In this document: piece after piece, positions 5,991 through 59,166 of the stretch | Layout of the letters: every line of letters starts with the position of its first letter | Numbering within the stretch: the stretch's first letter is position 1 | Assembly (NCBI RefSeq): GCF_032118995.1 | Contig: NC_092653.1 | Span: 23,889,202-23,953,201, forward strand | Reading direction: 5' to 3' | Length of the DNA stretch: 64,000 nt | Source: Asterias amurensis | Lineage: Eukaryota; Echinodermata; Asteroidea; Forcipulatida; Asteriidae | The notes under the pieces: generated by a model | Databases searched by the model: none | What the model saw: the letters and a program-made list of their open reading frames with translations, nothing else | What the model was told of the DNA's origin: nothing | Translations under genes and position numbers: made by a program

Positions 5991-8900
5991 TCAAGGCAGC
6001 ATTTTCTTGGTAAGACTGGTGTACACACACCTCTCCGCTTCTGCTGAGTGACGGGATTCGACCAAATGCTTGGCCTTTGCAGTGATTACTGACCGCTGCT
6101 CAGGGTTCATCAGAAGATCTTTAGCCAAGAAGATAAATTCCTATAAAGAAGAAAAAATGGGAAAAGTAAGTTTCAGATTGAACCAGAGGAAAATGGAAAT
6201 TCTGAGGACACTAGGTGGCAGCAGACTTGCCAGTGATCATTTCTTCTCATAAAACAAGTGCATATATAGATATTATAAACAATGCAAAGCTACATGCATC
6301 TGGTGTGTCAGCTGCCAAGTAACGAAGGTGAAATTATACCATATTTCTTTACAAGTAAATGTACATTTATAAATAAAACATACTGAAAACTGGAATGAAA
6401 TAAGATACAAAATAACGTCATAGAAAAACACAAGACAAATTCTCTCTATTTTTAAACAGTTGGGAGAAACTAGAACTGCAAAAAAATATAATTGTATGCA
6501 CAAAGTCTTTCAAATCGTATTAAATTATATTTTATGGTTCACTCGTCAAAGGAAAGAGAGACAAATAAAATGGTTCAAAACAACAACTGATTTGTGAGAT
6601 TCTCAGTTCATTGAATTCATTGGTTAACAATTAAAAAATATTACAAAATTTATAATCACTTGGAGTGAGTTGTACAAATACAATACAATAATAGCATATT
6701 AATCAGTGACAGGTAAATATGTAAATCAATTAGGAATATGTAAGAGGAGATATTGTGCAACAGAAATCGGACAAATCAAAAGAATTGGAATAACATGAAA
6801 CATATCGAGACAAAAGTTCATCACAAACTTCTTTGTAATACCTGTAATTAAACCAGTGAGATTACATCAAAAATGCAATTCAGTTTACAAATTGTTGTTG
6901 TAAAAACAAGTAATTCAAAGCAGAGGGGTGTGGAAGTTCGAGGGGTTTGTGGTGGTGGGTTTATAAGATAGGATTTCGGGCCAGGGGTAGTTTGAGCTGG
7001 AGGGGAAAGTAAGTGTTCCCCCTAGGCTAACCATGAAATAGAGACACCTCAAGAATAGAATACAATTGACATAAAATATCACACATGCTGCCAGAGGAAA
7101 CAGGTTGCCTTCAGCCCCCCCCCCCCCCCCAACACCCTCTCCCTTTCTGCGGGATATAACTGTACCCTCTTAACAGTGGTCCACTGGCCAAATGATGGTT
7201 AAAATAACACAGGACTAGTAAATATTCTCTCCAAGTGGTCCCACCTGGGCCCAATTTCATAAGCGGAAAAAAACTGCTTAACAAAATTCTTTGCTGAGCA
7301 AAAATTGAGTGGGACACCAGTCACAACGGTGTCACCTTTTGGCAGGTAACCTGTTTCTGTTAAGCAACAATTGTCTGTGCTTAGCAAGCTTTGTGCTCAC
7401 AGGTTTTATCAAGTTGTAGCCAGGTTTTGTTGAATCATAGTTAACATGAAATTTGGATCAGTGGAGAATCTGACTGTGAAATCTAAAAGAAACCACTAAC
7501 TGGTGCTGCTGACTAGTTACAGCAAACCCTGGCTAACTCAATGCAACAGGTACTGACCTGTGGAGTGTCATACAGCAGACCAGTCTGTCTATGCTCAACT
7601 AGTGTTCTGTTTCCTGGTATGTTGCGTGCTATCACTGGTACACATAAATCCATAGCCTGCAATGTTACACAAAGGAGATAAAATATGTACATTTATTGGC
7701 CCATCTTTGCAAAGTCACAGTGTTTTGTGCCAACTACGGTCAAGTGGTGGGCAAAACTAAGAGTTACCGTCACTTCAATAAATACAATGTACAGCAGCTA
7801 AAAATTTATAACAAATTTTAATTTCAGCACTGAAAAGTCTGTCTTATAATTTGCATGGAATCTTAAACAACTATTTGAAGCACCTACACTGTAGTAAATT
7901 TACTTCATTTTAGGGCGAGCTGGCCAGTCTTTGGTATGTGGTTAAGCTGAGAGTGTGCATACGAGCCAATATTGGCTTGTAGTACATGTACACAAGGAGG
8001 TCAAGAATAAAACAAAATCTGAACCAGAAATCAGACGAGCTTGTGTTCTTGAGCCATGAGCATCACAATTGCTTGATACCAGTTCAAAGGAAATTAGTCC
8101 CAGGAAATTCTATCCCCCATTTGGAAAATTAACATGGGCTGGATGAGGATAAAACAAAAGAGGGCGCTATCAAAAGAAGTACACTGTTGAAGTACCAGTA
8201 CACAGTTCGCCGTATGGGGGACAGAATCTCTAAGGGGACAACAAATCCTGCCACACCAGCACTATATACATGTCAGTGGGTGCGATCGTTTAGCTTCCCT
8301 GGGTCGACCCCGCGGTGCTCACTCGGGTGAGCCCCTGACAAAGCTAATCGAACGATCACACTCGCCCTCTCATGGTGACGACATGCACCGCAGGTCACCC
8401 CCAAGTGACCCACTCCACAAGCAGGGCACCGGGGGCTGGCCCGGGTGAGCCCCGTCAAAGCTATTCGAACGTACCGGGTCAGACCGGGGTCGACCCAGGG
8501 AAGGTAAACGAACGCACCCAGTTATTATTATTAACTACCTCTAGTATAGCAGTGGACATGCCTTCACTCAGTGACGAGTTGACTACAGCAGTACATTCTT
8601 GCATGGCTTTATGGCAGTCATCTTGTGCTAAAGGTTCTATCATCTCAACCCCTGGCAACCTGCACACACAAAGTAAAAAGAAATAATGATATCAACAAAA
8701 ATACATGATGTCAACTGGACTCTCGTCACCAGGCACACTCTGTGGTCCAGTGGCTAGGTCAACAAGATAATGGAGGTTCTAACCCCACCCGAGTAGAATG
8801 TGAATTTGAATGTAAGGACACTGCTGACAACCAGACAGGCAAGCATCATCAACAGCAACGTTGTAAAGCCACAAAGTCATGAAAAATTGGTCAGTCAAGG

Positions 8901-20500: not shown

Positions 20501-21689
20501 GACGACCTAAAAAAATTATACAGCAACTTAATTTTTATACTATGGGGGCATTGGGGGCAATCCCAATACTCCGGGGAAAAAATGTACTTTTTTGCTCGAG
20601 GGCAGTTGCCTTCAACCCTTCTCTATAGCCACTCGAATGGTTGGACCAATATAATTGGAAAATTAACAAGCCCTAAATTACATTTACTTCACAAAATCCC
20701 CTAACTTACAAATACACGAGCGTAAACGCTCTCATAAAACCGGTACATTCTTCAACAACATACATGACATAGCCTATCGTCCGTTTATTTTTTCCCCAAT
20801 AAAATTATGCCAATAAACTTCAATTACCAGTACGCTAAACTATTCCAAATATTACTTAAAGGTCGTCAGACTTGTTCGCAAAACTGTAATGTTGTTTTTG
20901 GACCAAAATAGTTGGAAACTATAGACGGAAAAGCTTACGTTATTTTAAAAAAAATCATCGAAGTCAAAAACAAGACAAACGCGAACTGCTCTCATAAAAC
21001 CTGCGCATTATTCAACAACACAGCCTACCGTCCGTTTATGATTTTTCCAATGAAAGTATGCCACGAAACTTCAGCCACCGATACGATAAACTAGTCAAAA
21101 GCTCCTTTGAAGGTTTTTGCATGGATAGTGCTGACATGACCAAATTAAATGTAAAGTTATAGCCTACAACTTAAAAAAGGTTCGAAACAAATCTATCCAA
21201 ATTAAAACACCGGGGTATGGTGGGGGGGGGGGGGGGTGAATTCTGAGGCAGAACCCAGTAAAGTAAATGAACTTCGGAGAAAAGTTTTGGGAAAGAGTTA
21301 TTATTCGTTTGTTTGTTTCTTCTGGAAGGGTGGTTCTCATAGTTATCAAAGCCTCATCAGGTTAACTTGTAAGGAAAGAGTACATCTCGCTCATAAAGAA
21401 TGTCTGGGCACTAAAAAAAAAGGGAGAACAAAATGTCGTATATAGAAGAGTTTGCGGTAACACCATGTAATGACTTTCTCTAAATGAGTTGGGGTGGTTC
21501 TGAAAAGAACCGTTGGGTTAACTCGAAAATGTCGTATGTCTCACTTAAAATTTGTCAGTATCCATCTCAAAATACCGCCACACGTTTACGGGGGAATGAA
21601 TTTGTGTACAACTCACATCATTTTCAACAACTTTTCAGCTGTGGACTCACCCCATCCATTTGGTGTATCTTGAGGAAACTTCTTGCAAG

Positions 21690-29232: not shown

Positions 29233-32200
29233 TTAGACAAATGAATACTGATTCCGTACTGCCCTCGCCGATGACCGATGGCCATTCTGACCATCCCGTG
29301 GAGAAGGCGACTGACCGGCCGAATTCATGGACAAGGAAAACTGGCTGCCGGATCCTAAGAACTCGTTTGAAATCATGAGGGAATTTGAGGTGCCCAGCCC
29401 TCTGTTGGCACCATCAGGCGTTTGTGGTGTAAGCGGGGTGCTTGGTGTGCTGACTGACTGCGCATTCGGGACGAATTCAGTCAATGTGACGTCCGGTTGG
29501 GTAGCACCATCTCTGCTGTCCAGTGGTATGGGATGGGAGCGAAAGTAGTCCAGCATGTCAAAAATACTTTCAAACCACATGTGTGTGACTTGGCATCGAC
29601 AGCTTTCATCCAGAGTCATGCGTAAATGCTGTAGAACAAAATAGAAAAAGTCATGATCCACACAAACATGCCTCTGAATTCCGTGGTTTTCCTTTTACTT
29701 TCCGACTAACGCGGCTGGCCCTTTTATGGAGTCAAAACTGTGACTCCACAAACTGGCGTGCAGTGTTAGTTCATGAGAGATAAGGAAAAACTAACAAGTT
29801 TTGACACATCCCAAAGACTTCTTTCTCCATTATTGACTCTTACCTTTGGTCTGCCATGAAAGTTGAACGTCAGTACGCATTCCCCACGTCTTGTTTCACT
29901 CTGTCTGACCAGGAATACTCCATGTCTTGTGTTACCTCCTTGTAGGACAAGCTGTGCTGCATCCACCCTTGATAACGTACCATGAAACCATGGGAACTCG
30001 TTCAGGTGTTCCGATGTTGAGGCCATTGGGTCTGATGACGGTTGGTTTAAGTTTTGATTTGATCCATCTATAAGTTAATACAAAATTAAGAAAGTAAAAT
30101 AAATCATGTTCTGTAGTAGGCTATGTTTGTTCCCTAAATTTAGAACATATTTTGAGCAATACAATTTTGAATTTTAAAGAATGAAATGGGATGATCTTTG
30201 TAAAATAATTTTATAGGCTAAATAACAACACAACATGTTTTGCCTTTGAGAAATCCTCTGCTACATTTTGGATTGGTAAGCAGTTTGCAACAGCTACATG
30301 TAGTAATGTATTGTTATTCTATATTCTCATAATACTAATTACGTGTACTGTACATGAACATGATGAAGGCCAGTAAATATCAAGCGCACATGTACAGTAC
30401 ATGTACATGTACATGTGCTCATTGACATGTACATACATGTATGTAAATATTTAGATATTTTTTCTTGAGGAATAACAAGAGTAGGCCTAAGGCATATGAT
30501 AAACTTTAAAGTGACGTCCAGATTGATAATGCTAGAGTGTACATGTCTTGACTGCATGCTGTAACTTGTAAGAAAACAATTTGTATGAATAAAAACCATG
30601 AGATTTTCTATCAAAACTTCTTGGAGTTCAGCTTTTCTGATAAGAACTTTCTCATACATGTAGGGTTCCTGTCCCCTCTCCAATAAATGTCAATATGACT
30701 CCTTCACTTTTACAAGAAATCAGTCGCACGCAAAGCCATTACCCTACGGAAACACCCCAGCCATACAGCTTAGAGTCCACCAGCTTGTGCAGTATTGCCA
30801 AGGCATGGCGGTACTGTATATCTTTAGCAATCTGTTAATACGACGTGCCTTTCAAACTGTCACTTATACTCTGGCTTGATACACTTTGAATACCATATCA
30901 CAGGATATGAATAATACAGGTACGAGTGTGCGTATACATGTACACACATGGATGACATCTAGTGACCTGCATGTACATGTACAAGAATGAACTGCGAGTT
31001 AAAGCGAACTTTAGATCTTTGAAGCTGCTCCTTAATCAAATCTGAAGGAGATATGACAACAACTTCATAAATGTCTTCATTACCTTTCAAAGTCAAGTAG
31101 ACCAAACTGACTCAACACATGTAACATGTGTGCCAACTCGGACACAAGGCCGGTGATTTTAGCCTCTGGCCAGTAAACTCAGGACTGGACAAGTTCAGTG
31201 GTCTTGTTTGTTTTTGAATTTTCATTTGACTATAAGAACCTCACTGTGTAACAATACATGTATCTTTACCTTTCAATTGAAAAATAATATCTTTCAAATG
31301 TATTCATGGTGAGAGCAAAATACTTAGTGCATGTTCCAATAAAAACAGACACATGTACCCCAAACCACGAAGAAAGTCCTCTCTCATTATACCTTCTGGG
31401 CATGTAAAATAAATGCTGGTCCAGCAAATGATGATGTACATGTAACCTACAAGCCCTGTGGTTTGGTGTATCCTACCCCCCCCCCCCTCCCCCCAAAGGT
31501 CAACTCACATTGTTATGGTCAAGTCAAAATTATTCTTTCAAATCACACGGAGAGATGACTCACAAATCACTTTGGTCATAGTCCGGTCAATTTAAACCAG
31601 CAGCTGCCTTAACTCAACAAATCCCCATTGGTACAACTACAAATTAGGTCTCGGTTTAACCAATAAATGGTCATTGATGACATCTTTGTTCAAAAATATC
31701 AAACAAGTTCTCTTGATTGAAACACATGTACTACTAGTGTAGAACGCAGACATGAAGCTGCAAAACAACAGGAAATGGCCATTAAGGGAAAACAACTTTG
31801 TGCAGTGTTTTTCCTATTTTTTATGGCACTGTTTTCTTTTAAGGAAACAAGGAAATCAGCTGATCAGCTGAAAAAGATGCATGCCTGTGCATGGTACAAA
31901 CTTTTACTGTTTGTACTGTCTGTAGATACATGTATACAAAACATTGTACAATTTTTTTCAATTAATTTAGACCTTTGAAGGAAGAAAAAATGTTTTAAAA
32001 AAACCAACATGGTGGAGTAACACGGGGATGTATAATGTACAAGAGTGATGGTCCACACATTAATTTTGTGTACAAAACCAAAAGGAACTAAAAAACAGAG
32101 AATCCTTGATTTACAGGGCCTACATGTGCAAAAATGTGTGTACATGTTACATTGTACTGTTTGCATACATGTGTACTTCGTACTACAATAACTTTGTACA

Positions 32201-50200: not shown

Positions 50201-52193
50201 TTATTATTTACAGGCCACAATCCCTTTGAATCCTGCCCTCTGGCAAATTGGATATTAGGCCCTAGATACAAGAAATTGGAAAACAACTGGGCATTTTTCT
50301 CCCCAGGCTTGGACATTGGACTAATTCTGTCTATCTGAACTCAATTGGCATTATTGGGACATGTTTATACTGCTGTTATAATGGCATCAGTTGGGTCAGT
50401 CCCAACTCTTGTTGGGACAACCCCAACTTGGCGTGGATGTTTTTTTTAAACACACCCCTCCATCTTCCCCACTGTTCGGAGGATGCTTGAATGGTTGTGA
50501 TTATCACAACTAAACTTGGTCGTACTGGAGTATGGTTGGGAGAGGTCCAGTATTGCTCCCACAGCTGTCTCATGAAGCGGCATGAGAAAGCAAAAACCAT
50601 AATTTAGACACTTACACATAATGCAGAACATTACACAATCTGTCTTTCAAGAAGTCATCTTACTTGGCCACTGCATGTACAAATATTTGCAGAGAGCTTT
50701 AAATTTCTACTTTTGTGTGGATTTGAATTGCATTTTTTTGATTTACTGCAGAAGTGTAGTGAATCAAGTACTCAAAATAATAGTTATGATGATATTAATT
50801 TTTAAGTTATTAAGTTAAGTTATGATGATCAAAACCTCTTACTTAAGTTGTGTGATCAACAGAAAGTAATAGTATGACCACATGTATATGAGGTAACAAA
50901 TTGTGGTATTATACAATGAATACCATACTAAGCTTTCTTACCCCAACAGCATTCAGGAAGTGGTCTTCAGTGACCCATACGTAGTTACTGTATTTCATTC
51001 TCAACTAGATATGATGAAACTTTATAAAGCTGATCTTTCAACATTTTGTACGTCTTGATTCAACACTTCCCTTACAACACAAGTTATATTGACAGTAAAC
51101 ATCAAGACTGACTTGCTGTAAATTAATGTGTAAGCACAAAACAAACTGAGTTTGTTTTGTCTGAAACTTTTTAAACTAAAAAGGTCTTTTAACTGCTTCA
51201 CGCCTAGTTGCGATAATCGTGTTTAGGCTATTGCTCTTGGTCACATCCCATTAGTTAAAGGTTAGACCTTAATTTAGGAGGATTGAGGCTTTGAAATATC
51301 GCAACTATTTAAGCTCTGCTATCTATGTACGACCGTGGAGCAACAGCTCAATGAGATGGTTAAGAAAATCACATCACATCACATCACATCACAAGGCATA
51401 AAACACTAAGATGTTGAAACTGGACCACTTTATACTCGCTGAATTGTATGCATACCTTTGGCGGGGAATAAAAATCCAGCATGTGCCCCTCCAGGCGTTT
51501 CACCAATATCAATCGAGTTCGCTCCCATTTTTGTTTCCCTTGATTGTCCTCACCGACAAGATAGTTCACATTTCCTTCTCGGACAATATCTTCTGGCTGG
51601 TACTTGACCCCACGATGTTGGGCCACCGTGTGTCCCCTTCGAAACCGATTCATTACATTTTCAGTCATGTTCCGGAAAGAGAATTTCCGCAGAACTTTAT
51701 TCTCAGTTCTTTGTCCGCCTCCTCCAACGGGGAGGATATTTCTGCTGTTACCATCAATGCTTGAGGTGCTGGAGTATCTACTGTTGGACTCACCATTGAA
51801 CACATTCCCGTTCCGGACTTCAGGCCGTCCTCCGAAAGAGTCCGACAAAAGCCTGGTGTTGACGTTCGCGTTGGACTCCGAGTCCGCGGGGCTAGCGGGG
51901 CTTTCCAGGGCGGCGTCATTTGCGTTGCGCTGGTCTTCCCTGAAATCAGACGGGCTGACGGTGTTGTAGGCTCGCCGTACTTCTGTTTCAAAATGGTCCA
52001 TGAAGTGATCGGCGAAACGCCGGGCAAATCTATTCTCATCCACGGGTGGTGCACCCTCGGCCGGGGGGTTGACACTTATGAACCGGTGGTAGGCGAAGGC
52101 GAAAGTAGACGCAGCTTTCTGAGCCTCCACCTCGCAGAATTCATTCATATCGATCACTCGATCGTTGTCATGTTGCTCCATCGTCCCGTTCAT
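29233..52193 (-). CDS. SH2B: SH2B-family adaptor protein (complete, seven coding exons, 627 aa)
   Basis: Minus-strand coding exons, in transcript order: 51456-52193, 42794-42895, 37151-37254, 33963-34072, 33209-33418, 29844-30067, 29233-29628; 1884 nt with consistent phases. N-terminus (about residues 10-75: [20 protein letters not shown] ... [20 protein letters not shown]) is the phenylalanine-rich dimerisation domain. A PH domain spans about 185-315 over three exons (FYSPPK|SSKPRIG ... [16 protein letters not shown] ... MRSWLTNIL). A proline-rich linker ([16 protein letters not shown]) follows. The SH2 domain starts at FPWFHG (about 446), has FLVRQSE with the phosphotyrosine-binding arginine near 476, and ends near 540. 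The C-terminus [10 protein letters not shown] matches the Cbl-docking motif of vertebrate APS/SH2B2. Family role: cytoplasmic adaptor downstream of receptor tyrosine kinases and JAKs. Ortholog of the whole vertebrate SH2B1/2/3 group rather than one member (inference). Confidence 0.93.
29665..29750. repeat. SH2B: palindromic repeat family E, copy 1
   Basis: catgcctctgaattccgtgg, ccttttactttc and the hairpin tggagtcaaaactgtgactcca recur in inverted orientation at 32945-33050. It sits in the last SH2B intron, about 37 bases from the terminal exon. Confidence 0.55.
30385..30445. repeat. (ACATGT)n-type simple repeat
   Basis: Runs of acatgtacatgt and variants. The same word is scattered across the whole window, most densely between 30.3 and 33.7 kb in SH2B introns. 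Confidence 0.8.
30446..32940. other. SH2B: SH2B intron between exons 33209-33418 and 29844-30067, no gene seen
   Basis: Only simple repeats (acatgt words, a C-rich tract near 31476-31492) and unassigned repeat fragments. No exon with coding signal found. Confidence 0.55.
32945..33050. repeat. SH2B: palindromic repeat family E, copy 2 (inverted)
   Basis: ttttgtggagtcaagttttt and gactccataaaatgg form the same hairpin as at 29665-29750, and flanking ggaaaaccac and ttgaggcatgtttgtg match it in reverse complement. Confidence 0.55.
34652..34822. mobile_element. SH2B: foldback element of the ttcac...cctaa type
   Basis: gtcaatttcaccaaactctt and taggattaatcttaggac on the left pair with aactaatcctagcgtttcg and tgaaatcggc on the right. 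Imperfect relative of 25618-25750, in an SH2B intron. Confidence 0.5.
35886..35998. repeat. repeat family B, copy
   Basis: tggccttggtgccccttcaa, attttccaatggaggtgccc, aaatggccttgccctt and gaaattccag in family order. It lies in the SH2B intron 34073-37150, where I see no exon. Confidence 0.6.
37429..37530. repeat. repeat family B, diverged copy
   Basis: ttggccttgctgcccctcta, attttcctatgacactgccc and gaaaatgggcttgcc align with the family B order. It lies in the 5.5-kb SH2B intron between PH-domain exons. Confidence 0.5.
39239..39308. repeat. 70-base direct repeat, copy 1
   Basis: From ctgcaagttacgtgtacatt to gatggagagtagata the 70 bases are the same as at 39926-39995 by eye. It is followed by unrelated sequence and a poly-C tract. 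Confidence 0.75.
39926..39995. repeat. 70-base direct repeat, copy 2
   Basis: Matches 39239-39308. It is followed at once by actagtcctaactctttgtg, the arm of the foldback family seen at 25618, which suggests it belongs to a larger element. Confidence 0.75.
41096..41549. mobile_element. 454-bp MITE with 8-bp target duplication (hAT-like)
   Basis: Left end CATAGAGCTATTTGACTAGA and right end TCTAGTCAATATATATAGCTCTATG are terminal inverted repeats; the subterminal gcgttttgaagcc and ggcttcaaaacc continue them. GTCTAACC flanks both ends (41088-41095 and 41550-41557). The 8-bp duplication is typical of hAT elements. No coding sequence inside. An unfilled paralogous site lies at about 41965-42020. 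Confidence 0.85.
41920..42135. repeat. paralogous copy of the MITE insertion locus (empty site)
   Basis: gcagacagccagggtctaac followed directly by a tctatttctggggtg region, the ccagctggcag segment and agttgaatagttgaactcgg reproduces both flanks of the 41096 element without the insertion. The locus is therefore a local duplication made before, or not shared by, the insertion. Confidence 0.75.
43235..43410. repeat. repeat family B2 (tgaagtatcaggcatgc)
   Basis: Blocks aaggggaagggcattttctc, gagcatttcaagggcaccaa and cctccatgaagtatcaggca recur at 45465-45665 and partly at 36590-36665. It lies in the large first SH2B intron. Confidence 0.55.
44514..44677. mobile_element. MITE with AGACCGTATTGAATA ends
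   Basis: AGACCGTATTGAATA at the left pairs with tattcaatacggtct at the right; cgccatcttgtagggc and gccatgttgtagggc are internal direct repeats. Flanks atgccat (44507-44513) and ttgccat (44678-44684) look like a 7-8-bp target duplication with one change. Confidence 0.7.
45465..45665. repeat. repeat family B2, copy 2
   Basis: tttgaaagggcaatggcaac, tttcaagggcaacaaggcaa and cctccatgaagtatcagtcc follow the order of 43235-43410. Confidence 0.55.
47525..48002. mobile_element. MITE related to family A, interrupted by a second MITE
   Basis: Outer ends gggtccaatttcatggctct and agagccatgaaattgggccc form inverted repeats that differ from family A at ggctct versus gagctgc. The centre is interrupted by the complete family A copy at 47722-47965. 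Confidence 0.7.
47722..47965. mobile_element. MITE family A, complete copy nested in another MITE
   Basis: GGGCCAATTTCATAGAGCTG at the left and cagctctatgaaattgggcc at the right, with ttaagcaaaattttgc and gcttaagcaaaattctg inner arms. It lies wholly inside 47525-48002. Confidence 0.75.
48535..48835. repeat. minisatellite, unit about 56 bases, five to six copies
   Basis: gaattgttca-type words recur at about 48574, 48613, 48667, 48723 and 48782, each followed by aggca(g/a)tTgcct and then ctttggtgccct. Units have diverged. It lies in the first SH2B intron. Confidence 0.7.
51367..51393. repeat. (CATCA)n microsatellite next to the SH2B first coding exon
   Basis: Five units of acatc starting near 51369, about 65 bases from the donor of the first coding exon (51456). 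Confidence 0.85.
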
Positions 52194-53950
52194 TTTGACT
52201 GTCTGCTACAATTTGATGACGAAATTAATGGTAATACATGATTCCTGATACAATCCACATCGTGTTCCTTCCAAGAAAATCAATGATCAAGGTTTGTTAA
52301 ACGTGAAATACACGGTGTCTTTCCAAGATAAGTGCTTAGAATTCCTAATAAGTCGTCATCATTTCCGCATCTGTTCGTCGTGTGTGATCATCTGCAGCAC
52401 AAAACACGCGGTAGATCGCATGCAATGTGTGTGTGTGTGTGATGTGATGAGCGCCATCTGCAGACTGTTTCTCTCAAAGCCAATGAAAATAAAATGCGCA
52501 GTACGTCATAATGAATCACTGCGCAAACTGAGGAGGTCAACAGTTCAAAGGCTAACAAGAAAGGTCAACAAAGAAAACAGGTGACTGATTGCTGAATTTA
52601 GTCAACTTTACACAGTCGTTGCTGCGCAAACAAAAGTTTCTCCAAAATCCAGAACCAACAAAGCTAATTACTTCAACTTAGATACAACAGCAGAAGAAAT
52701 CAACGAAAATTGACGATATGTTTGATGCTTGAAGCTTCAAAGTGTGTTGATTTGTGCTGAAAAAGTTACTTTAAAATAAAATTAAAACTTGTGCAAAGTG
52801 GAAATCTAAAAGAGACTTGGAAGTGTCTAGGTGATCGTGATCTGGCTGAATGAATTTCTGGACGGTTTCATCAATGAAAAGAAGGACAGGCATGACGGGT
52901 GTTTCTCCATGTTCTCTCTGTTTTCAGTGTTTACTAACAAGGTAAGACTAATAAAGATATTGCTATTTGGAGATGAACTTCTTTTTAGCTACACAATGGG
53001 TCAATGGGAGAAGACAGGATCAAAATACCTTCCCAGATTAACTCTGAAAAGTTGACACAACAAAACGTGAACAGCATAATGATACAGTGCACCTCCTCAA
53101 GTGCAGTGAACTCTAGTTCACACTGAGTTGCGATTCAAATTTCAAGGCCATCGGGAGAGGAGGGTTGGGATAACTTTCCGTATGGCGCCACCACTTTTTC
53201 ACTCATTTTTACAAACAGGGATATCTCATTGAGGTAAATTTGATACTATATTCTTTCATATCGAATGAATAAGTGGTGGCGCCATACAGAAACTTTCCCC
53301 TAATTTACCTTTTTCTTTTGTAAAAATGAGTGCATCCCATAAGTGGTGGCGCCATAATCACCATACAGAAATTTATCCGCTTAGTAGTTAGGTTAGGAAG
53401 TTAGGGGGGTGGTTTGGGGGAGACGATAGACGCGAAACCGAAATAGTTCTAGCTAGGAGTAGTTGTCCCCTCCCTAAACTTCACCACTCTGTGGACGCCG
53501 GTTCAAAATTAGAACTGGAGGGCTTCTTGCATGTGGATTGGGTTTTTCAGTCCTACTTTGTTGGTTTTAACTTTTCCTTAAAAAAAAACTATTCAATTTC
53601 TTCATTGTCTTCTTAAGTTCTTTACTTCACTGGGTAGAACTCATGCAATTAATGTGGGTAGTTTGTGTGTGTAGGGCATGCTTGCAATGCATGCGCTGGT
53701 ACTCAGTTATATTTACATTGGCTAAATACACAGCGACATGAGGAGTACCAGTTGTGTAGGATGTAGGATTCCTAAACGACACATACCTTGTATTTTTTCC
53801 GCAGATCTTGTAGCAATTGGCAAATATATTTCAAAATGTTTTCATAATGCTATTTGTAACTGCTAACTACATTGTACATTTTGTTTTCCTGCAGAACCAA
53901 ACAAACAGACCTCCATGTCAGCATTTGGGTAGCAGTAATTCTTTCCAAAG
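52194..53950. promoter_or_regulatory. shared upstream region of SH2B (minus) and the PhnD-like gene (plus)
   Basis: The two start codons diverge from a 1757-base interval. It contains a CCAAT word in aaagccaatgaaa near 52478, a (GT)n run near 52429, possible plus-strand donors at aaaacag|gtgact (about 52580) and aacaag|gtaaga (about 52941), and a MITE at 53168-53378. The coding start exon of the PhnD-like gene is preceded by a tttcctgcag acceptor at 53895, so its 5'UTR is spliced. Start sites are not determined. Confidence 0.4.
53168..53378. mobile_element. palindromic MITE with three copies of a cgccaccactt word
   Basis: ggataactttccgtatggcg and ccaccactttttcactc at the left pair with cataagtggtggcgccataa and acagaaatttatcc at the right. 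A third copy, aagtggtggcgccatacaga, lies in the middle near 53272. Confidence 0.65.
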
Positions 53951-56900
53951 ATGGCAGACCAAGCCATTCCACTGAGACTACGTCTCATCACGTATCTTAC
54001 CCCTGGCGTACCCATCAAGTACTTTGAGTTATTGAAGGAATATCTTGAAGAAAAGTTACAATGTTATGTGTATCTTCTGTCTGAGAGTCGCTGGTCTGGA
54101 CCGCCTGCTGACCGTGTAGATCCTTTTACAACAGGAGATGCTGATATTGGTGAGGAAGAGTAGAACCACAGACGGGCAAAGAGTGTTGGCAATCGCCCAA
54201 AAGGGTGGAGGCAATTGCCTCGATGCCCTACGCTTTTCACTGCCTTATCAGGCCAGGAATTTTATCATTGAGAGGGCAAGGCCATTGCCATTTTCTGTTT
54301 GAAAATCTTGCATTCACACGCAGGCTTCCATTGGCCTACGTTGGCCTTGGGCCCAATTTCTAAGCAAAAAATTTTGCCTAAGCAAAAAAATCATTGCTTA
54401 GTAAAATCAGATTACCGGCCAAGACTCCACTCAATTGTAATGCTAAGTAAACAACAGCTTAATACTAGTCAAAAGCAATGTATATTGCAGGAAATTTTGG
54501 CCAGTAACATGTTTAAAATAAGGGAGCTATTTTCGTGCTTAAGCAAATTGTTTGCTTAAGCAGCTCTATGAAATTGGCCCCTGGTTTTGGCCTTGGTGCC
54601 CCTTCAAAGATTTCCCACTGACTTTAAATGTGGTGCTCTTTGCAAAATGAAAATGGCCTGCCCTTTCAAAGATGAAATTCCAGGCCTTAGAGTCTATTTG
54701 AAACTTGTGTTCTATATAAGTAGCGCCAAGGCAAACAGGCCATGCCTCTCTATAATTCCAGGCCTGCCTTGTTGCCCTAAATTAATCCTTACTGTATTCA
54801 CGTTGCAGGATTTGTTTGCTTTCCAACATTCCACCGCATGTTTTTGGATCCAAAAAGCACAGTTATTCTCCTAGGTATAGCTGCTGGAAATGCTGACCCT
54901 CGCATTCAAGATCAACCGATGTACTTTTCAGATGTTATTACCCACAAAGATAATTGGTAAAATATCAAGTTTTATCATAGAGTTACATATATATAAGAAC
55001 TAGAAAGCGCACTTGCCTATATACACGCCCGGCATGCGCCCAGGCGGGCATTTTCTAAGTTGACAAAACTGGCATCTTACAGCGTGTGTTTGTGCGGCCA
55101 TTTTGTAAGTTGAACAAACAGCATCGCATGAGCGTTCAATAAAAAAAAACTGAAACGTGTATTTCATATTCAACGCGCGTGCAGAATGAGGAGCTTGTCA
55201 TCTTGCGGTCCCGTGGCGTTTGTGCACGAAGCATCACTCGTGCGCCCTCTAGTTCTTAGTTATAACTCTATGAGTTTTATATAACACCCAAGCAGATCCT
55301 TGCTATTTGATTGGAGGATTGCCTGATTGAAGGAGTGTTCCATTCAACTCTGCGTCGCCTCATTGAATGGAACATTCCATCTTTCATCTCATGAAAATAT
55401 TTGCACCAAATTGCAATCATAAACATTCATTGTTTGTATAATAGTCAGGCTCATTGTAGAATGTCGCACCTGTCCTAACATCTTCATCTTTAAGCCTTAC
55501 TCCCTAAGCCCACTTGCCTACCATCCTCCTCTCCAATGTCACTTCACTCCAACATTCTTGGACCTACTACATGTGCGAACCAAGTGGCTTTCCTGTAGCT
55601 CTGGTGACCCCTTTCATAAAATAATCCAAACTCCTTTGTGCTTTTACTTTGTCTGTTCGTAATCCTTTCTTTTTGTGGCCTTCATAATATTAAAAATCTA
55701 AATTTGTTGAGTTTAAATGAGAACTAGAATTGTATAGTTTTTTTTACGATTTGGGTATGTTAGTGTTAAAAGCTTGTTGTGCTAACCAAAGTTCTCTTTT
55801 GTTTTGCAGTACTAAATTCAAAGAGTTTAAAGACCTGCGTGGTTCAAGATGGGCATACAATGACGACTACTCATTAAGTGGATGTCTCATAACACTCAGG
55901 GAACTACGGAAGATTGGAGAAAATGCAAATTTCTTTGGCAACATTGTTCGATCAGGTATGGTTACTTTTGTCGCTTTCTTTTTCTGGATCCTCCCTTAAT
56001 CCCTTTCCCTTTTTTTTCTATAAACGGATATGTATTTGTTTGTACTTGTTTATGCCTCTGATGAAGAAGGTCCAATTTGGATCGAAAGCTAAGGCCATCT
56101 AACCTACTAATTAGGCTATTTAGTTTTTATATATATTTTTGTATGAGATACCACTTTACATCACAAGGCGGGCGGCCATTATAAGATGAAGGTTATACTT
56201 TAAAACTGATTTGGGCTGTCGTCAGAAATGTCAAACCTTCCAGTCTCAAGCTCTGGTGTTACTGATCAGCAGAGAGTGGGTTTGAGTCTCGATCTTGACG
56301 CTTGTGTCCTTAAGCAAAACACTAATTGTAAACCCTTTCAGGTGCAACATAAATTGGGGCGATCATAAGATATCACAATTCTTCATAAACTGCAAAATAC
56401 CTGTCTTTAAAAGTGTTTCTCTTAATTTGTTCAAGTGTCTTGAGCACCTAAATGGTGGATGTGCGCTATAAAGACATGCATGCTCAGATCTTTTGTTAAA
56501 GTGAAAATTACCTTGTATGTCTATAGCCAACTAAGATCCCCACGTCTTTTAATTGGAATTAAAGGTACTCCTACCTGATCCCTGACCTTTCGACCCCCTA
56601 TTCCTTTCCATCAGGCGCCCATTTGAAGTCGATCAAGATGGTCCTGAACAAAATGGTAGACGGTGCCGCAATCGACTCCAACACCCTCTCCTATCAGATG
56701 AAATGTGATCCAGAGTTGAGGAAGAAACTACACATTGTCACATCATGGGGACCACTACCCGTATACCCTGCTGTGGTCAGCTCAAAATTACCCGGTAAGT
56801 GCATTTTCTTTTGGTTTATTTTCTAAAGATACCACCTGATTGAATTTAAGCAAGGCACTTAACCATGATCGCTCCATAAAGTAGGGGAGGTAGTGCTTTC

Positions 56901-58546
56901 TGCTCTACTAACCAGGCTTCTTATGGATACCCATGCCTGCATCCGTATATGGACTGTAAAGGGGATAACCCTATTTCAGCCTCAGGAATACATGTAGGTG
57001 GCAATGGCCCCTGGACAAAACAAATTGTTAATAGCTCACACCCTGACATGGCCTTCGGGCCTTGTGTGTCACATGACTTGCATACAAATTAATAATATAA
57101 AAACGTAGGTTTCTGGCCTAAAGTCACATCTATTGAGTTAATTGTCAGTGACTCAAACTCATACTCGAGTCATGAGGTGCATTCTTTGACCTAGAGATGA
57201 CCCTGACTCCCAGTGGGACATACACTCATTCTTATTGACTCACACAGCCTAAAAATAACCTTTGCAATTCCTAGACTGTTTCTAAACCCAACATAAGAAA
57301 AACCCATGTAAGCTACTTTTTACCATAAATAAAACAGTCAGAGTGAGGATGGATCTTCAGCATAGTAGATAAATTCTCAGAACGTTTTGTGCATCCAAGT
57401 ATTATTCTAATTATCTTGAAGGGCACAGTAATTTTCCTATTGTAAAGGGGAGTGAAAACCTGAAAAGGGCATCTTGGCAAAAGCAACGGGACAACTGGGC
57501 AATATTTAGCAGGCGCTGTACATTACTTCAATCAAGGCCTGCATGGATTATACACAAGCAATACAAATTCTTGTATAATGCATTATGAATAAGCGCTGGA
57601 CAGTCTGCCAAAAATAGAAGTGTAACTGACTTCTAATGCCATACACACTTTGAGTCAATAGATTAACCGGAGATTGCAACTCATTGTGACATTTGCAAAA
57701 TTGCCGAGGTACGATGCTCTAGAGGGGGATTTACTTACACCTGTTTTTTAGAATTCATCCCTCTTGATGATTCATGTTGGATTCGGGATTCATGATCTCA
57801 ACTGAGACTGCCTGCCGATGGTAAATTAAATTAAAACTGAAGCTTTAAGACTGGAGGGTCATTGAAAGTCTCAAGGGGCCCATCTTTAAGATCCGCTCAG
57901 CAAATAACTTTGAGGATCAAAGATGTCCTTAAATATTCCTATTAAAAGCTATTTGTATCCTTCATTTGTTTTAGTGAAATGGCTGCTGGCAATATACATG
58001 TATTTAAGTAGAATAAACTGCATTTAAAAAAAAAAAATTATTCAGGACATGATAGCTCTTTTTTAACTTTTCCATTAGAAATCTGAATTTGCATAACAGT
58101 CAGTTCAAAAAGATTTATCTTTGACAGTTTTATAAGTATCTCAGATTTGAGATATTAAGATGCTTCTACAAATAAGCACACAGGTTTAACTCCCTGTCAG
58201 TGAAAAACTTCCTTAGGTTTAATTCTTATTATTATTGGTTTATTAAACCAATATTAAGATGCTTCTACAAATAAGCACACAGGTTTAACTCCCTGTCAGT
58301 AAAAAACTTCCTTAGGTTCAATTCTTATGTTTTTCTTTCTCTTCATTTTTTTTTCAAGAGGAACTGAGGAAGTCGTTGGTCAGCCACTTTCTCAAGATGC
58401 ATGAAGATCCAAAGTGGCAGGCTCGTCTGAACGAGTTCTTGGTGACTAGGTTTGTCCCTGTTACATTGGAGGACCTTCAAGGAGAGGGAGACAAAATCAG
58501 GGAAGAAGTTGGAGAGATGACCATGACCAAAGAAGTAAACTACTGA
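53951..58546 (+). CDS. PhnD-like substrate-binding-protein homologue without signal peptide (complete, five exons, 286 aa)
   Basis: Plus-strand exons 53951-54149, 54809-54956, 55810-55955, 56615-56794 and 58359-58546 join in phase to an intact 861-nt reading frame, stop TGA 58544-58546. The start ATG (caaagATGG) follows a spliced 5'UTR. The protein resembles the phosphonate-binding (PhnD, Pfam Phosphonate-bd) class of type 2 periplasmic binding proteins. It opens with a beta strand and LKEYLEEKLQCYVYLL, then FTTGDADIGFVCFPTF, then FKEFKDLRGSRWAYNDDYSLSG (residues 119-140, the KSLxDLKGKxxAF...S.SG block), then LNKMVDGAAIDSNTL (175-189, with the ligand-site-type D185), and a C-terminal PEELRKSLVSHFLKM. 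No signal peptide or lipobox, and no PhnC or PhnE partner, so it should be cytosolic. Ligand and role unknown. The family call is by motif order, not by search. Confidence 0.82.
54250..54686. repeat. repeat family B interrupted by a MITE
   Basis: Family B blocks (caggccaggaattttatc, agggcaaggcca) on the left and ggccttggtgccccttcaaa to gatgaaattccaggcct on the right are separated by the family A MITE at 54349-54580. It lies in the first intron of the PhnD-like gene. Confidence 0.65.
54349..54580. mobile_element. MITE family A inserted into repeat B
   Basis: gggcccaatttctaagcaaa at the left and gcagctctatgaaattggcc at the right; the left end has lost part of the atagagctgc segment. Confidence 0.7.
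56225..56480 (+). repeat. tRNA-derived SINE
   Basis: A-box-like caagctctggtgttactg, B-box-like gtgggtttgagtctcg, then cttgtgtccttaagcaaaac and a tail ending gcgctataaagaca. The gacac/cttgtgtccttaagc segment links it to the inverted copy at 59285-59430. It lies in the third intron of the PhnD-like gene. Confidence 0.6.
58154..58328. repeat. tandem duplication, unit about 99 bases
   Basis: attaagatgcttctacaaat to ccttaggttyaattcttat occurs at 58154 and again at 58253, with two or three differences over about 77 bases. It lies immediately before the last exon of the PhnD-like gene. Confidence 0.8.
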
Positions 58547-59160: not shown

Positions 59161-59166
59161 AATAAA
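59161..59166 (+). terminator. candidate polyadenylation signal of the PhnD-like gene
   Basis: AATAAA about 615 bases after the stop, followed by an A-rich run. The preceding ttcagcctttggctgcaatg resembles LINE/SINE 3' ends, so it may instead be a retroposon tail. Confidence 0.3.

Follow-up and report, generated by a model that had tools for sequence, protein, structure and literature searches.

A spliced Asterias amurensis gene for a putative intracellular binding protein with an AioX/ArrX-type pocket and bacterial kin

AioX and ArrX are arsenic-oxyanion sensors; AioX and ArxX bind arsenite and ArrX binds arsenate and, weakly, phosphate, according to the available sections of PMC5908839. The AioX pocket consists of Tyr88, Cys106, Tyr131, Ser161, Ser163, His192 and Asp210; arsenite is attached to Cys106, and PhnD carries Gly and Asn at the places of the AioX Cys and Asp (PMC5908839). 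In the isothermal titration calorimetry (ITC) reported in these sections, AioX bound neither phosphate nor phosphonate, and AioX, ArxX and ArrX bound no selenate; selenite is absent from the ion list given there. Here, we describe a five-exon gene on the + strand at positions 53951-58546 of a 64,000-nucleotide stretch of Asterias amurensis DNA (the window; contig C6:23889202-23953201 of the assembly). We propose, with a probability of about 0.63, that its product is a type-2 binding protein, soluble and cytosolic, from a stand-alone bacterial PF12974 subfamily and would employ an AioX/ArrX-type pocket as a small-oxyanion receptor.

Family, pocket and gene structure

Pfam finds PF12974 (Phosphonate-bd) in the animal protein at 95 bits against a cut-off of 27 (E 6.1e-27), far beyond chance and as the sole domain at E<=1; the Thi5/NMT1-type domain gives no Pfam match at this threshold. 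PF12974 proteins occur in other animals and in fungi. The family named by the original prediction was borne out, but its label 'PhnD-like' pointed to the wrong subgroup: the PhnD equivalog TIGR03431 (NCBIfam) scores 65.2 bits, below its cut-off of 261.1, and the pocket Cys and Asp are of the AioX type, which together rule out PhnD proper. TIGR01098 (phosphate/phosphite/phosphonate substrate-binding protein) scores 86.9 bits, below its cut-off of 112.05. The nearest solved structures by sequence are ArrX (1.8e-16) and then AioX, and a four-row profile searched against solved structures gives ArrX (3.5e-32), AioX (3.0e-24) and PtxB (2.5e-14). The AlphaFold2 model of a Chloroflexota relative (L011, 36% identical to the animal protein), computed from 39 rows, has a mean predicted local distance difference test score of 94.6 and a predicted template-modelling score of 0.90. 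In a Foldseek search with this model, ranks 1-11 are occupied by AioX and ArrX (best E 2.1e-25), PhnD and others come after, and Thi5 appears at rank 50 (E 6.9e-11); this model and the Pfam match support the PhnD-superfamily fold originally proposed.

The AioX pocket was mapped through the HMMER alignment of chain 6esv, where all seven letters fit with a constant offset of 21. Six of the seven residues are identical in the animal protein (C70, Y105, S137, S139, H167 and D185). In the 48 other cytosolic rows, all bacterial, the same places hold C in 48, Y in 47, and S, S, H and D in 48 each; these counts, like the trees below, leave out four loci (L015, L016, L020 and L021) whose frames had ended at a TGA. 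The secreted PhnD-type proteins of the bacterial operons have Gly at the Cys place and Glu at the Asp place (3/3). Among 69 columns that are near-invariant in the 15 closest rows (the SGP group, see below), the animal residue matches in 50. As for the motif blocks first reported, SxSG (SLSG, 137-140) and DGAAID (180-185) are present as described; the remaining block reads FKDLRG (122-127, preceded by E), so that its DL(K/R)G part stands and the letters SL do not. The animal protein belongs to a proposed, unnamed stand-alone family with an AioX pocket: it has no visible signal peptide, carries the Cys/Sec-Ser-Ser-His-Asp pocket (Sec, selenocysteine) and takes its place in the clade.

The rebuilt gene is intact and spliced, as originally claimed: its five exons are in phase and form an uninterrupted frame of 861 nucleotides (nt) that encodes 286 amino acids and a stop codon, with no internal stop, and all four introns (659, 853, 659 and 1564 nt) are of the GT-AG type. 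Exon 1 (53951..54149, +) encodes residues 1-66 and the first base of codon 67; its ATG has the context AAAGATGG, and its donor is GTGAGG. An in-frame TAA stop (53936..53938, +) lies 15 nt 5′ of the ATG, and, judged by eye, the N-terminus, MADQAIPLRLRLITYL, lacks a hydrophobic signal segment, in keeping with the earlier claim that an export signal is lacking. With codon places taken from the exon table, exon 2 (54809..54956, +), which ends within codon 116, carries the pocket residues C70 (54817-54819) and Y105 (54922-54924); exon 3 (55810..55955, +), which ends within codon 165, carries S137 (55871-55873) and S139 (55877-55879) of the SLSG anion loop; and exon 4 (56615..56794, +), which ends within codon 225, carries H167 (56620-56622) and D185 (56674-56676). 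Exon 5 (58359..58546, +) runs to residue 286 and the stop codon TGA. The first AATAAA/ATTAAA 3′ of the stop codon, a candidate polyadenylation signal by pattern only, is at 59161..59166 (+). GC content is 0.44 in the coding sequence, 0.37-0.43 in the introns and 0.39 in the window. Intron 4 contains two 78-nt copies, 97% alike and spaced by 99 nt (window 58152-58328).

A six-frame protein search of the 491.5 Mb animal genome (23 contigs) returned five pieces, which are these exons, and nothing else; the gene is the single copy found. The PF12974 profile gave nothing at 1e-3 in the same genome, where exons are scored singly; the protein search recovered all five.

Bacterial relatives and origin of the gene

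Relatives were sought in several collections. Plasmid records yielded 138 with a match, the best-ranked at 32% identity. A scan of genome contigs with the animal protein alone found no relatives; with a small alignment it found 71 loci, a yield biased by patterns that came mostly from cyanobacterial rows. Relatives were not found in scans of viral contigs. Genomes drawn from four phyla were searched with the animal protein at thresholds that differ between draws: 39 of 251 Chloroflexota genomes had a match at E<=1e-10 (at least 99 bits in 17), as did 3 of 52 of the SAR324 phylum at 1e-15 (one above 100 bits), 1 of 398 Pseudomonadota at 1e-22, which is the centre genome itself, and 31 of 396 Actinomycetota at 1e-22. 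The best matches overall, down to E 1.8e-60, are from Actinomycetota, where the top matches come from ten genomes (38-42% identity, at least 170 bits). In the literature, judged by title and abstract, no previous account of a family member from an animal or another eukaryote was recognised; database annotations may well exist.

Among the relatives from the plasmid records and the contig scan, which belong to Cyanobacteria, Chloroflexota, Actinomycetota and SAR324, the alignment begins near residue 10 of the animal protein; by eye, most of these proteins start a few residues earlier and have no signal peptide. Since the closest bacterial relatives already have no visible signal peptide, the missing export signal is a trait of the bacterial family, and its loss is not an animal step. 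The original idea of a secreted protein redeployed to the cytosol in animals is therefore not supported; in addition, a tree that places the animal protein among secreted proteins (rows that include an ArrX-like one) is rejected by the approximately unbiased test (p-AU 0.0012). Two relatives appear by inspection to be exported, L023 and L009, the latter at an arsenic locus with an adjoining histidine kinase. A Chloroflexota member (L024:5986-7353, +) has about 190 extra residues of unknown kind C-terminal to the binding domain.

In a 54-row tree, the animal protein falls within the stand-alone family, in one group (support 100/99) with 15 bacterial rows, 14 from Actinomycetota (L103-L116) and one from Chloroflexota (L087). 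We termed this group the SGP subgroup after a block common to the rows shown, the animal protein included, SGP...DPF...D(V/I/L)GF(M/V)C.P. L100 and L101 were left out, the longest frame of either locus not being the matched gene; in a tree that contained them the outgroup did not make up one side of any branch. Close kinship to the cyanobacterial proteins, which had been the first good matches, is rejected (p-AU 0.0048). A tree in which the 15 bacterial rows form a group of their own is equally good (p-AU 0.52), and because a position of the animal branch inside the SGP group cannot be told from one beside it, no donor is named. For a spliced gene whose kin, as sampled among bacteria, are all bacterial, a transfer from bacteria would be the simplest account, and a horizontal origin is likely.

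Contamination, already doubted in the original prediction, is ruled out by the introns and by the location at 23.9 Mb of contig C6. The window itself is animal, because it holds a histone 3′ untranslated region stem-loop (Rfam, 21470-21516, −, 34.7 bits against a gathering score of 34) and minus-strand SH2 (29769-30074, 3e-10) and Phe_ZIP (51387-52205, 1.9e-14) domains, and the assembly includes a contig (C23) with a COX1 frame that reads through 11 TGA. The two domains are presumably parts of one long SH2B-type adapter gene. Contig C5 also has two COX1 copies (658874-660214 and 675294-676634), 16.4 kb apart with 12 TGA each, which reflect either a mitochondrial genome copied in tandem into the nucleus or a fault of the assembly. 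As for the transporter partners originally said to be lacking, none of the ten window frames scanned with Pfam, out of 44 of at least 100 amino acids, is a transporter part; no genome-wide search for PhnC or PhnE was made.

The long animal branch would also fit a decaying leftover of an old transfer that has no present function. We regard this as most improbable: the five exons are intact with proper junctions and no stop, and the 50 of 69 near-invariant columns are retained despite an overall identity of about 40%.

Neighbouring genes and TGA codons in the bacterial family

To describe the surroundings of the bacterial genes, 17 stretches were cut round close relatives in 16 genomes, giving 16 SGP-type loci plus one of another type, L131. 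In nine of the 17 loci, the gene lies directly 3′ of, and in the same direction as, a member of a PhnE-like gene cluster, of which the members in L120, L125 and L129 score as PhnE over the cut-off (260.8 against 216.7 bits in L125). In L120, L122 and L125, genes for a PhnC-like ATPase and for a PhnD-type protein that is secreted precede the PhnE-like gene, and a LysR gene is upstream in L122, L125, L126 and L129. The secreted binding protein exceeds the TIGR01098 cut-off in L120 and L125 (238 against 112 bits in the latter), and PhnC of L125 is below its cut-off (220 against 266). Also over cut-off are SenA in L124, SenB and UDP-galactopyranose mutase in L122, SelD in L123, MtnA in L126 and ArgS in L121; a gene of the ArgS cluster is upstream in L118 and L119, as in L121. 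An intracellular binding protein encoded with an importer that has a secreted binding protein of its own would make sense as a receiver, buffer or sensor of import, and the animal appears to have the inside part of this bacterial inside/outside pair.

In line with the PhnCDE-type importer that adjoins the bacterial genes, the ligand could be a phosphonate, phosphite or phosphate. L125 has both PhnE and the secreted binding protein over cut-off, phosphite in PtxB is held by the same loop, Tyr and His (available text of PMC5700983), a full pathway for the synthesis of 2-aminoethylphosphonate is reported from a coral (available text of PMC3640398), and ArrX binds phosphate, if weakly (PMC5908839). 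However, the Cys and Asp that distinguish AioX from PhnD are retained, the PhnD equivalog score reaches only 65 of 261 bits, AioX showed no phosphate or phosphonate binding in the ITC data of PMC5908839, and a selenocysteine at the Cys place, probable in some relatives, has no obvious use for phosphorus ligands. We consider a phosphorus ligand rather unlikely.

Other neighbours point to selenium. SenA (selenoneine synthase) is over cut-off in 17 of the 396 Actinomycetota genomes, 9 of them among the 31 with a family match (E<=1e-22) and 8 among the other 365 (Fisher p 5e-7, a value that overstates the association as the genomes are related and the counts not independent), and it lies on one contig within 2 kb of the family gene in four of the 16 genomes cut (G934, G955, G987 and G1025). 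The LysR at the head of the operon has its best match in a selenium-associated LysR model (189 of 250 bits, below cut-off); a putative selenate model gives the secreted binding protein 192 of 250 bits and ranks after two phosphonate-type models. The same protein might capture selenite or downstream selenium species in the cytosol for the synthesis of selenoproteins or selenometabolites, with C70 holding the pyramidal ion much as Cys106 does with arsenite in AioX; the SenB and SelD genes of L122 and L123 and the probable selenocysteine of four relatives would suit it. Set against this are the relatedness of the genomes behind the SenA counts, the five rows nearest the animal protein, of which two are from genomes with SenA over cut-off (L105 and L110) and three are not (L103, L107 and L112), the position of L118, L119 and L121 behind argS instead, and SelD, which shows no association with the family in Chloroflexota (14/17 against 181/234, p 0.77). 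Nor did AioX, ArxX or ArrX bind selenate, selenite not being on the list in PMC5908839, and the cyanobacterial neighbours point to sulfur. A role confined to selenium is, on balance, doubtful.

The sulfur link is hinted at by neighbourhoods of smaller sets of cyanobacterial loci: with one representative checked per family, SsuA, SsuD and a sulfate binding protein exceed their cut-offs. SsuA, a TauD-like oxygenase or SsuD is found near the members in L034, L038, L042, L045, L049, L055, L060, L064, L068 and L079, and an Rrf2 regulator or a sulfate binding protein near those in L051-L053, L062, L066, L067, L074 and L077. In 39 of 75 loci (L006-L080; for example L041:6899-8146, −), cyanobacterial in those displayed, a TPR-repeat gene on the other strand is at most three genes downstream. 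We take it to resemble StaR/TTC38, a family also present in animals. Queried with the TPR protein of the cyanobacterial loci, the animal genome gave nothing, which is uninformative as exons were scored singly.

In four relatives, the codon of the pocket Cys is a single in-frame TGA: in L015 (TGA within 5992-6795), L016:3092-3890, L020:5992-6795 and L021 (from 5983), one of them from Chloroflexota and three from Actinomycetota. The pocket Cys column is covered by 127 of 132 loci with a match and reads Cys in 123 and TGA in 4, counts that are not independent as several loci are second cuts of one gene. The four frames are otherwise open, and L020 and L015 give whole family proteins when TGA is read as U; their DNA is 57-87% alike. 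The chance of four of five stops falling on one given column of 250 is 1.3e-9. The sole other locus with a stop inside the match, L076, has an unexplained TGA at the place of animal I90. SelB is over cut-off in all four genomes with a TGA locus and in 2 of 14 control genomes. Because the TGA stands exactly at the Cys codon in four genomes and SelB is present, the residue is probably selenocysteine, i.e. a selenoprotein form of PF12974; 'phosphonate' and 'PF12974' are absent from the main texts of two reviews that were word-searched for such a form. According to a 2026 review, SaoX and SaoB are other transporter binding subunits with predicted Sec, most transporter selenoproteins of that kind are implicated in metal or metalloid resistance, and Sec may act as a metal ligand (available sections of PMC13188914).

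The probable replacement of Cys by Sec in some relatives marks the pocket Cys as reactive and favours a soft ligand or a redox step. The finding of TGA at the pocket Cys thus weakens the case for a phosphorus ligand and strengthens that for catalysis. By analogy with the cytosolic yeast Thi5, built on a similar fold, the protein might have turned into an enzyme in which C70, or Sec in some bacteria, is a reactive or redox group; Thi5 is among the fold matches of the L011 model, and the probable Cys/Sec exchange falls on the C70 position. The anion-pocket residues are nevertheless retained, no second domain is seen by Pfam at E<=1, and the same Cys serves binding in AioX (PMC5908839), which makes an enzyme unlikely.

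Proposed mechanism and comparison with known systems

Combining these observations, we propose the following model for the small-oxyanion receptor. An ion such as arsenite, selenite, arsenate, phosphate or a close relative would sit in the cleft between the two lobes, bound through the SLSG loop (S137 and S139), Y105, H167, D185 and the C70 thiol. Both lobes would close on the bound ion, and the closed form might buffer it, hand it to an enzyme or signal its level; we infer such a sensor, buffer or carrier role rather than catalysis. In a more specific version, which we put forward tentatively as possible though not probable, the animal lineage would have acquired a bacterial intracellular receptor of the Cys/Sec family for the oxyanion of a metalloid or of selenium (arsenite or selenite) and would use it for sensing, buffering or delivery of that ion; the bacterial form would be the inside partner in two-stage capture, served by a dedicated importer. 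The pocket group would then be a thiol in the animal and a selenol in some bacteria. This version is strengthened by the TGA codons at the pocket Cys and because it covers arsenite too. The authors of PMC9312934 and PMC11097638 know of no dedicated selenium transporter, according to the available parts of these sources.

Several points weigh against the small-oxyanion receptor or parts of it. The AioX/ArrX-type fold is known from the model of L011 and not of the animal protein, in which the export signal is not visible by inspection, an absence judged by eye. The AioX Tyr88 place is occupied by W48 and is variable in the family. The animal branch is long (1.82 in the 54-row tree). Since AioX and ArrX bind different ions with a common pocket, the pocket does not name the ligand: its residues predict a small oxyanion, which is too general for that. 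As to the selenocysteine, none of the four TGA loci has an Rfam match to a selenocysteine insertion sequence at E<=1, and shuffled sequences fold as well as the 63 nt that start at each TGA (z −1.05 to 0.73). Selenocysteine is often a hallmark of redox enzymes, which would favour catalysis. With regard to W48, W52 of HtxB packs on hypophosphite (available text of PMC5700983) and, in our own reading, may correspond to it.

If the proposal is correct, an animal makes a protein that has the fold of bacterial binding proteins, an oxyanion pocket of the arsenic type that is still intact, and no sign of export. The gene also leads to a bacterial family with the AioX pocket and no export signal, whose members are in some cases encoded next to a full importer equipped with a separate secreted binding protein; this layout suggests a two-stage capture of a soft ion, first outside and then inside the membrane. 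In four genomes of that family, an apparent selenocysteine occupies the exact residue that binds arsenite in AioX.

SaoX and SaoB are like the bacterial relatives L015, L016, L020 and L021 in being binding proteins with predicted Sec, yet they belong to other families (NF040735 and NF040727; available sections of PMC13188914), neither of which is among the NCBIfam matches of the animal protein at E<=1. PhnD and PtxB share PF12974, the fold (in the model of the relative), the Ser-x-Ser loop, the Tyr and the His, whereas the animal protein is far below the PhnD cut-off, has Cys and Asp in its pocket and shows no visible export signal. AioX and ArrX have the fold of the relative L011 and six of seven pocket residues in common with the animal protein, the equivalent of Cys106 included; AioX, however, is periplasmic and stands at the start of a signalling system (PMC5908839), whereas no signal peptide is visible in the animal protein. 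The stand-alone proteins of the SGP subgroup (L103-L116 and L087) align with the animal protein over their full length at up to 42% identity and have the same SGP block, the same pocket and likewise no visible signal peptide; in contrast to the animal gene, which alone has introns, a PhnE-like gene stands directly upstream in nine of the 17 bacterial loci.

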